Below are positions 36,619-39,624 of a DNA stretch of 64,000 nt, one piece after another. Location of the stretch: contig NZ_PDKG01000001.1 of the NCBI RefSeq assembly GCF_004116725.1, positions 248,001-312,000 of the forward strand, in the 5' to 3' direction. The DNA comes from Arcobacter sp. CECT 8986. Lineage in GTDB: Bacteria > Campylobacterota > Campylobacteria > Campylobacterales > Arcobacteraceae. Made by a program: the position numbers and the translations under genes. Positions within the stretch are counted from its first letter, which is position 1. Each line of letters begins with the position of its first letter. The notes below the pieces were generated by a model. The model had not been told where the DNA came from, did not search any database, and saw only the letters and a list, made by a program, of their open reading frames with translations.

Positions 36619-36648
36619 AAAAAGCTACTAAAAAATTAGTAGCTTTTT
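36619..36648 (-). terminator. nhaD terminator
   Basis: A perfect 13-bp stem AAAAAGCTACTAA / TTAGTAGCTTTTT with a 4-nt loop lies 8 bases after the nhaD stop. A- and T-runs on both sides let it work on either strand. Confidence 0.8.
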
Positions 36649-36656
36649 ATTATTAT

Positions 36657-38039
36657 TTAGAAGTGACTGATTTGTAAAACTTCGTATTGGAAGTACCATA
36701 CTAAAATAGATACTACATATCCAATAAATACCGTCCAAGCAAATTTCATATGAGAACCAAAAGTATAGATTCCATGTAATTTACCCATAACACCAACACC
36801 AGCTGCACTACCAAATGAGATTAAAGAACCACCAACACCAGCTGTTAAAGTAACTAACATCCATTGGTCAAGTCCCATTTCTGGATTTGCTTTTAATACA
36901 GCAGACATTACTGGAACATTATCAACAATTGCAGATAAGAAACCAACTCCAATATTTGACCAAGTTGGTCCTAATACTGATGGGTCATAAACATGAGAAG
37001 CAAGTGCTAACCATCCGATGAAATATAATCCACCAACTGCTGCTAAAATACCAAAGAAAAATAATAGTGTATTATTCTCAATTTTTGCAATATTATGGAA
37101 AATATTGAAGTGGTCAGAACCATATTTTTTCTTAAGTCCATAAGAGTAAACTTTAAGTAAAGATAGACCAAACATCATACCCCACATTGCTGGTAAATGT
37201 AAAACTTGGTGAGACATTACAGCACAAAAAATAGTAAATACACCTAAAAACATTACAACTTTTGCTCCTGCTGCCATCTCTGGTTTTTCTTCTTTAGAAA
37301 CATCAAAGTCTGGTTTTACATCAGGTACAAATCTAGCTAAGATAAATGCTGTTGTTAAATATCCTAAAATTGCTGCTGGAAACAGATATAAGAAGTCTGT
37401 AAATACACCTTTTCCTGCTGTCCAAGCCATAAGTGTAGTAATATCACCAAAAGGAGACCATGCACCACCTGCATTTGCTGCAACAACAATATTAATAGCG
37501 CCAGGAACTAAGAACTCTTTTTTCTGTTTATCTATTGTGATTAAAACTGTTGAAAGAATAAGTGCAGTTGTTAAGTTATCAGCAATAGGTGATAAGAAAA
37601 ATGCAATAAATCCTGTTACCCAAAAAAGTTTTCTATATGTATAACCTTTTGATACAAGATTATATTTCAATCTATCGAAAACGCCCATATGAATAAGTGA
37701 TTCGATATAAGTCATAGCAACAAATAAGAAGAAGAAAATCTCTGCAATTTCTAAAATTAAGTGTTCTGCTTGAATATGAACTAAATCCATATTTAAACCA
37801 TTAATTGCATAATATAATGCAATAAGAATAAAAATAAAAGTACCTATAAATAAAGCTGGTTTTGCTTTATCTATCTCATATTTTTCTTCTGCAGCAACAA
37901 AGTAGTAACCTACTACAAAAATTAATAACGAGGCGAACCCAATCCATGTCATCGTTAAATCTGGGATTTCTCCTTGTCCTGAGCTTGACGCAAATGCGGC
38001 TACTGTACATAGGAAAAGTGACAGTATAACTTTAAACAT
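36657..38039 (-). CDS. nhaD: Na+/H+ antiporter NhaD
   Basis: The 460-residue protein has about 12 helices and an N-terminal hydrophobic leader. Signatures of the NhaD branch of the ion transporter superfamily are FFLSPIADNLTTALILSTVLI, NIVVAANAGGAWSPFGDITTLMAWTAGKG and IVDNVPVMSAVLKANPEMG. It expels Na+ or Li+ in exchange for protons, relevant for a salt-water lifestyle. The ATG follows AAGGAG by 5 bases. The leader (38040-38166) holds a long, apparently switchable RNA structure. Confidence 0.95.
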   Translation of the reverse strand: MFKVILSLFLCTVAAFASSSGQGEIPDLTMTWIGFASLLIFVVGYYFVAAEEKYEIDKAKPALFIGTFIFILIALYYAINGLNMDLVHIQAEHLILEIAEIFFFLFVAMTYIESLIHMGVFDRLKYNLVSKGYTYRKLFWVTGFIAFFLSPIADNLTTALILSTVLITIDKQKKEFLVPGAINIVVAANAGGAWSPFGDITTLMAWTAGKGVFTDFLYLFPAAILGYLTTAFILARFVPDVKPDFDVSKEEKPEMAAGAKVVMFLGVFTIFCAVMSHQVLHLPAMWGMMFGLSLLKVYSYGLKKKYGSDHFNIFHNIAKIENNTLLFFFGILAAVGGLYFIGWLALASHVYDPSVLGPTWSNIGVGFLSAIVDNVPVMSAVLKANPEMGLDQWMLVTLTAGVGGSLISFGSAAGVGVMGKLHGIYTFGSHMKFAWTVFIGYVVSILVWYFQYEVLQISHF

Positions 38040-38159
38040 TAAATCTCCTTGAAGTGTTTCTTCAAATAAACCTAAAATTTATTTGAAGATTTAAAATTAA
38101 ATTCTGCCTAAAAAAGACTTAAATTTAACCTACTGCTTTAACTTACATGGTTATTAGGC
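38040..38159 (-). promoter_or_regulatory. Structured 5' leader of nhaD with mutually exclusive hairpins
   Basis: Three elements occur, listed from the 5' end on the minus strand. First, an outer stem GCCTAA / TTAGGC (38154-38159 with 38106-38111) encloses AACC / GGTT. Second, a perfect 12-bp hairpin TCTTCAAATAAA / TTTATTTGAAGA with a 7-nt loop (38059-38089). Third, a 6-bp hairpin TTGAAG / CTTCAA (38049-38065) whose 3' arm overlaps the ribosome-binding site AAGGAG (38045-38050). Hairpins two and three compete for bases 38060-38065, so only one can form. This is how translational riboswitches and thermosensors look; no known class is recognised. Confidence 0.5.
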
Positions 38160-38166
38160 TTATATT

Positions 38167-39624
38167 TTAGTCTTTTTTAAGGAAGTGAGCACCTAAAGAC
38201 TCTTTTCTATTTAATGCAGATTGTAAAATTTGTCTAGCTGTTAACAATCTTAAATATAAAAGTCGTCCTACATCTAATTTTAAGAAACTATTAACTTGAG
38301 CAAGAGCATCTTTAAGTTTGTGTTCTTCTCTTACGATAGCTGCATTTTTCCACATAATTCTTCTCAAAGAATCTTTTATCTCTTTGTCAATAGGTTTATT
38401 TCTAGTGTAAGATTTTATCGGTTTCATATAATTTTTATATGATATTTTGAAATTATCTTTTAAACTATGCTCAACTGCAAGTTTAGAGAAAACAATTCCT
38501 TCAAGTAATGAGTTAGAAGCCAATCTATTTGCTCCATGTACCCCAGTACAAGCAGCTTCACCAACAGCATAAAGATTTTTCATACCATTTACTAAAGCAT
38601 CTTTGTTTGTTGGAATTCCACCCATTGTATAATGAAATGCAGGAGAGATTGGAACTCTTTCAAATGGAAGTTCAAACCCAAGTTCTTTCAAGTTTGAATA
38701 AATATTTGGAAATCTTTTTTTGAAAAAAGATTTTTCAAATGTCTCAAAAGATAGATAAACACCCTTTTTATTTTTAACTGCATAATCAAAAATTGCACGG
38801 CTTACTACATCTCTTGGAGCTAGTTCACCATCTTTATGATAATCAAATAAAAATCTATAATTATCTTCATCAACAACATGAGCACCCTCACCTCTTAAAG
38901 CTTCACTTAATAGAGGTTTTCTAGCAAAGTGTGTTCCTTTTACTACTGTTGGATGAAATTGAAGCATTTCCATATCTTTTAAGGCAATACCTTTTTCTAG
39001 ACAAATACCTTGAAGTTCACCAGCAATAGTTGTAGAGTTAGTGTGATATTTATATAAAGACCCAACTCCTCCACTTGCAATAATAATATTGTGTGCATAG
39101 ATAATTTTTTGTTCTGTTTCACTTACAAAAACTTGTGCACCATAACAAACACCATCTTCTATTAATAAATCAGCAACAACAGTATTTGTCATCATTTCAT
39201 GAGGAAAATTTTGAACTAAAAAATAGTGAATCATTCTTCCCGTAGCATCACCATCAGCATGTAAAATTCTATCTCTTGAGTGTGCTGCTTCTCTTGTAAA
39301 TGCAAGTTTTCCTTTTGCATTTAAATCAAATTGAAGCCCCGCACTAATTAAATCTTTTACAGCTTTTAATGAGTTTTTGCTTAGTATTTCAACAGCTTGC
39401 TTATCATTATAATTTGCACCTGCAACTAAAGTATCTTCTATGTGTGTTGGAATATCTTCATCATCAACAGCAGTTGCTACTCCACCTTGAGCCCAAAAAG
39501 TATTACACTCCCAAGGAGATTTTTTTGTAACTAATAATACTTTTTTATCTTTTGGTATTAATCTAGCAGCATTTAACCCAGCGACCCCTGACCCAATAAT
39601 CAGATAATCATAAGTTGTCTGCAT
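38167..39624 (-). CDS. nadB: L-aspartate oxidase
   Basis: The 485-residue flavoprotein oxidises L-aspartate to iminoaspartate, the first step of NAD synthesis. FAD binding is YLIIGSGVAGLNAARLI; WAQGGVATAVDDED, REAAHSRDRILHADGDATG and HPTVVKGT are the active-site blocks shared with fumarate reductases; YTMGGIPTN and GEAACTGVHGANRLASNSLLE complete the pattern. NadA and NadC are not in this window. Its ATG overlaps the stop of the tiny lipoprotein gene by one base (TAATG). Confidence 0.96.
   Translation of the reverse strand: MQTTYDYLIIGSGVAGLNAARLIPKDKKVLLVTKKSPWECNTFWAQGGVATAVDDEDIPTHIEDTLVAGANYNDKQAVEILSKNSLKAVKDLISAGLQFDLNAKGKLAFTREAAHSRDRILHADGDATGRMIHYFLVQNFPHEMMTNTVVADLLIEDGVCYGAQVFVSETEQKIIYAHNIIIASGGVGSLYKYHTNSTTIAGELQGICLEKGIALKDMEMLQFHPTVVKGTHFARKPLLSEALRGEGAHVVDEDNYRFLFDYHKDGELAPRDVVSRAIFDYAVKNKKGVYLSFETFEKSFFKKRFPNIYSNLKELGFELPFERVPISPAFHYTMGGIPTNKDALVNGMKNLYAVGEAACTGVHGANRLASNSLLEGIVFSKLAVEHSLKDNFKISYKNYMKPIKSYTRNKPIDKEIKDSLRRIMWKNAAIVREEHKLKDALAQVNSFLKLDVGRLLYLRLLTARQILQSALNRKESLGAHFLKKD

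Follow-up and report, generated by a model that had tools for sequence, protein, structure and literature searches.

The Na+/H+ antiporter gene nhaD appears to be furnished, across the Arcobacteraceae, with a promoter and leader module of its own, in which a start-site element for a putative regulator is followed by a structural hairpin in the 5′ UTR; we hold this reading with moderate confidence. In the sequences compared, the element is linked to nhaD and present once per genome, and the hairpin is conserved as a structure only; from the whole we infer a transcription start at the element, a regulator that acts there and a role for the hairpin. The leader is new, being specific to one family, lacking an Rfam entry and usually hidden in the coding end of the neighbouring gene, nadB. 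A first-pass annotation of the window (the whole 64 kb stretch of DNA analysed) had proposed a switch-like leader in front of nhaD; the leader is real, conserved and nhaD-specific, while the evidence that it is an ion-sensing switch is poor.

Read along the minus strand, the window contains nadB, a 127 bp gap, nhaD and then guaA. nadB (38167–39624, minus strand; NCBIfam TIGR00551 nadB, 467.7 bits, above the cut-off) encodes L-aspartate oxidase, and nhaD (36657–38039, minus strand; NCBIfam NF038006 NhaD_1, E 6.5e-109, above the cut-off) a 460-residue Na+/H+ antiporter. The nhaD ribosome-binding site (RBS), AAGGAG (38045–38050, minus strand), lies 5 nt upstream of the ATG and is retained in almost all homologous leaders. 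At its 3′ end nhaD carries a strong intrinsic terminator, AAAAAGCTACTAATTTTTTAGTAGCTTTTTTT (approximately 36619–36648), with a 12 bp stem and a T-run, which forms the boundary between nhaD and guaA. Five genomes of the window's genus (L087–L091) have a second nhaD paralogue, 71–74% identical, before which we saw no sign of the conserved element.

Lining up the pre-nhaD regions of relatives gave the first sight of the element, as the shared block TTTAAGGCTACTTACGGCAAAATC, and its family consensus is the 24 nt TTTAAGNYTNYTTACGGCARAATY. It lies 49–73 nt upstream of the nhaD ATG, whether inside nadB or in a gap, and is found in 58 of 104 family genomes, one copy each, when at most 2 mismatches are allowed; a reversed control pattern gave zero matches in the same 104 genomes at that tolerance. 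Exact matches to a broader form of the element are confined to Arcobacteraceae among 399 genomes of the order, hits outside the family having 1–2 mismatches and being roughly as frequent as matches to controls. A second (trans) copy was not found on either strand of the family genomes with up to 2 mismatches, and we rejected the idea of a regulon site on account of the single copy per genome. The window has a variant, TTTAAGTCTTTTTTAGGCAGAATT (38100–38123, minus strand), in which 5 of the 22 fixed positions depart from the consensus and which is carried by the window's genome (G000) and its two nearest relatives, identically in G005 and with one change in G003. Between G000 and G005 all 28 of 28 bases at the element are the same and the upstream spacer differs at many positions. 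The element is lost in G002, G028 and G029. A side observation concerns the pre-nhaD gap of G004 (L154), where the upstream GCCGTAAATAGCC repeats the element's GGCTGTTTACGGC almost perfectly in inverted orientation and would pair with it in a 13 bp stem seen in this species only.

Comparison of about 100 Arcobacteraceae genomes (104 in the element search) shows nadB in three contexts. In 59 genomes nadB overlaps nhaD or stops just short of it, and in most of these pairs the element coincides with the nadB codons for LRLLTAKS, which in most genera fall within the last ~30 codons of the gene. Another 15 genomes, members of the window's genus among them, have a nadB that ends earlier, leaving a gap of 52–152 bp before nhaD, and in 14 of these the element is in the gap. 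Where nadB has no nhaD behind it (24 genomes), the element codons mostly differ (e.g. TTAACTGC, TTAACAGC), and synonymous identity drops from.78 with nhaD to.46 without it at TTA, from.80 to.59 at CTT and from.77 to.40 at ACG. Nature has provided an experiment on a regulatory element inside a neighbour's coding sequence, which can be compared with nhaD present, with nhaD absent, and with the element freed into the gap behind nadB. The gap form seems to have arisen via partial duplication, since nadB-tail sequence is still present between the element and the start in the gap leaders of G064 and G092, and a decayed second copy of the element lies within nadB in G064 and G085. In three genomes of genus g20 (G103, G101 and G100; L207, L209 and L214) guaA follows directly behind nadB and nhaD is missing there; all three retain a near copy of the element in the nadB codons, probably a remnant that outlasted the relocation or loss of nhaD.

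A hairpin lies between element and RBS in 14 of the 15 gap leaders (mean z −3.2 for the full set of 15), the sole exception being G002, which also lacks the element. The arms read CAAGTA/TACTTG in G092, CAAGTGA/TCACTTG in G096, CAAGCG/CGCTTG in G099, CTACTAA/TTAGTAG in G097 and GTGCTTAA/TTAAGCAC in G083, so that a structure is kept in a fixed place with both arms changed: its position is conserved and its sequence is not. The embedded leaders were each scored against synonymous recodings of themselves. The last 48 nt of the nadB tail before the GAH codons gave a z of −1.57 (SE 0.14, n=59), compared to −0.8 to 0.2 for other nadB windows and −0.16 for nadB tails without nhaD (n=24). Genus means of the tail z are negative in 15/15 cases (mean −1.94, p 3e-6); inside a single genus, g2, the tails with and without nhaD differ (p 0.013). 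On this sequence comparison, it is only ahead of nhaD that nadB tails shape the hairpin through their choice among synonymous codons. Median spacings are the same in the embedded and gap sets, at 10 nt from element to hairpin and 8–9 nt from hairpin to RBS. In the embedded set the pairing register shifts, so that RNAalifold recovered no shared stem, and a four-fold degenerate site pair covaries weakly (24 observed against 17.9 expected pairs, p 0.04, ancestry uncorrected). Genus g6 has the hairpin and lacks the element; a joint loss of the two, suggested by G002, G028 and G029, was discarded as a general rule, there being no correlation of element with hairpin strength over all leaders. In other Campylobacterales families the hairpin signal is not specific to the nadB tail.

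The window's copy of this family hairpin is P1 (38059–38089, minus strand), whose arms TCTTCAAATAAA and TTTATTTGAAGA form 12 perfect pairs around a loop of 7. Perfect stems of at least 12 bp with a loop of 3–10 occur at four places in the 64 kb, including P1 and the nhaD terminator. The stretch containing P1 has a folding z of −4.4 against dinucleotide shuffles, and the whole nadB–nhaD gap one of −2.8. The 12 bp hairpin picked out by the first-pass annotation is part of a structure kept across genera with complete sequence change.

Four genera have gap leaders in which a σ70-like promoter lies directly before the element. In its best form, TTGACA-N16-TATTAT (11/12; G092, G093, G096 and G098), it ends 3–4 nt ahead of the element's AAG, which would make the element the site where transcription begins; TTGACA also precedes the element in G064, G083, G085 and G099. 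The window's own copy shows no promoter of comparable strength in front of it, and a start at the element is suggested there by analogy. The element was also considered as an activator site and set aside, as inspection of the gap leaders by eye revealed no consistent −10 hexamer just downstream. Separately, G064, G083, G085, G092, G093, G096, G098 and G099 (respectively L180, L205, L160, L174, L168, L164, L163 and L162) carry three TTGACA/TTTACA hexamers every 11 bp before the element, the second doubling as the −35 box. These repeats look like candidate half-sites of an OmpR-type response regulator, and are absent from the window's genus.

In the proposed module, RNA polymerase would start at the 5′ edge of the element, on which a dedicated putative regulator, most likely a DNA-binding protein, would act. 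The hairpin, folded in the 5′ UTR, would serve as structure and not as a switch, protecting the 5′ end and holding upstream RNA off the RBS, and the arrangement would give nhaD an expression of its own, separate from that of upstream nadB. As partner of the element we favour a DNA-binding protein over a ligand, since nucleotide conservation is restricted to a little-structured stretch at the promoter; it is from this conservation that we infer a bound regulator. Such a module would probably give sodium/proton exchange a control of its own in a family spanning fresh to salt water. Both the 24 nt element and the hairpin can be recoded without touching the NadB protein, which makes the earlier idea of a regulatory leader testable.

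Regulation could instead act at the RNA level, a possibility we regard as unlikely but worth keeping in view, with the element as the 5′ end of the mRNA, bound by a protein, a small RNA or a ligand, and the hairpin as a second half-site. The promoter match sets the element at the transcript 5′ end, a structured hairpin stands at a fixed distance downstream, and within the element TAAG/YTTA could form a 4 bp stem that is kept in nearly all copies. Variation in this potential stem is, however, limited to a change from G-C to G-U, which is no proof of pairing, and the hairpin lacks both conserved nucleotides and a correlation with the element. A small RNA with long complementarity is made unlikely by the lack of a trans copy of the element within 2 mismatches. 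Rather doubtful, too, is the notion of an RNA control element, made up of the conserved tag and the structure-only hairpin, that is written into the last nadB codons by synonymous choice, was later freed into the gap in some lineages, and senses salt or pH via a putative RNA-binding partner and so sets nhaD expression.

The model of the first-pass annotation, a switch for ions, pH or a ligand whose mutually exclusive hairpins open or close the RBS, is improbable. Its observations are confirmed: the 12 bp hairpin, a 6 bp hairpin (P2) and an upstream stem are all present in the minus-strand sequence, P1 and P2 share bases 38060–38065, and P2 (38049–38065, minus strand; arms TTGAAG and CTTCAA, 6 pairs, loop of 5) overlaps AAGGAG by two bases. 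The analogy with ion-responding antiporter leaders is also reasonable, as Na+ and Li+ riboswitches are known before antiporter genes, nhaD among them (PMC9646797, PMC9337991). The predicted energies, −11.4 kcal/mol for P1 and −3.4 kcal/mol for P2, are nevertheless ~8 kcal/mol apart, and pair probabilities in the leader ensemble are 0.62–0.98 for P1 and about 0.07–0.17 for P2, so that in the folding model both hairpins exist without being near-equal alternatives. P2, which we judge minor, is limited to three close species, being identical in G005, 5 bp long in G003 and unseen in the remaining leaders. Nor does the RBS seem to be closed: its accessibility does not differ from that in shuffled leaders, in either the embedded or the gap set, which is why we do not take the hairpin for a cover over the RBS; a conserved alternative helix at the RBS, as expected of a translational switch, was not found in these leaders. 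The upstream stem (38107–38159, minus strand), which pairs GCCTAA (38154–38159) with TTAGGC (38107–38112) and encloses AACC/GGTT, is not conserved as part of the leader, since in the alignment it is kept only via G-U pairs in G003 and mostly broken in G005; if the leaders with a clear promoter are a guide, it would fall at or before the transcription start. Compensatory changes in homologues, named at the outset as the arbiter of these stems, support the P1 hairpin but neither P2 nor the upstream stem. The Rfam search likewise proposed matched no family: there was no match at gathering level in the 64 kb window, Na+-I, Li+-I and Li+-II were not among the matches up to E 10 for 37900–38300, and 12 homologous leaders gave none up to E 1. 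With thresholds this permissive, and with a hairpin free of aptamer-like conserved nucleotides, a sodium, pH or ligand sensor is not supported.

Slightly less credible still is a three-part RNA switch peculiar to the window's clade and based on competition between nadB end, element and RBS, such that read-through frees the RBS and short transcripts hide it. The nadB end, CTTAAAAAAGACTAA (38167–38181, minus strand), can pair with the window's element (38110–38121) over 13 bp at −13.7 kcal/mol, a strength matched by 1.2e-4 of the window's 17-mers, and the element can pair with the RBS at −10.2 kcal/mol in the window's clade. An RBS partner of the latter strength is, however, expected by chance ~0.9 times per 100 nt leader, and we rejected the element as an anti-RBS strand because its pairing, strong in this clade, is at chance level; with the window trio left out, native and swapped element–RBS pairs differ only at p 0.047. 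The nadB end–element pairing is limited to the window and its two nearest relatives, the switch being absent from the remaining Arcobacteraceae, and even within the trio the predicted states disagree, with G003 closed and G000 and G005 open. Least credible of all is a reading in which the hairpin is a nadB intrinsic terminator, or an inverted repeat that arose by chance, and the element is nothing more than a conserved part of the NadB protein sequence. The element does encode the conserved residues LRLLTAKS in most genera. Yet 14 genomes have it outside nadB, constraint on its synonymous sites is seen only where nhaD follows, and in 15/15 genera the hairpin signal belongs specifically to nhaD-linked tails. 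P1, moreover, is followed not by a T-run but by the RBS, and no GC-rich stem with a T-run was found in the nadB–nhaD gap.

Among known systems, the Na+-I (DUF1646 motif), Li+-I and Li+-II (nhaA-I and nhaA-II motifs) riboswitches likewise occupy leaders of cation/H+ antiporter genes. Unlike these, to none of which a covariance-model match was obtained, the present leader has a hairpin without conserved aptamer nucleotides, is limited to one Campylobacterota family and lies mostly inside coding sequence. The site of HP1043/HsrA, an orphan regulator of the OmpR family in Helicobacter pylori, has the consensus TTTAAG-5 bp-TTTAAG (PMC8345958). The element resembles it in starting with TTTAAG, in having a similar hexamer, YTTACG, one helix turn on, and in its overlap with a promoter. 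It differs in its spacer of 4 rather than 5 bp, in its second hexamer, in its one copy per genome where HP1043 sites are many, and in its probable position at the start site where HP1043 sites lie at −42 to −26; a TTTAAG-5 bp-TTTAAG site overlapping the −35 box is not what these leaders contain. As judged from sequence, then, the resemblance offers a lead, but neither the spacing nor the second half-site agrees. A parallel in form to the hairpin is offered by the stabilising hairpins of the ompA type, found at the 5′ end or near the RBS of bacterial mRNAs. Here too a structure is kept upstream of the RBS while its sequence is not, with the difference that the nhaD leader hairpin is made, in most genera, by synonymous codons of the upstream gene.
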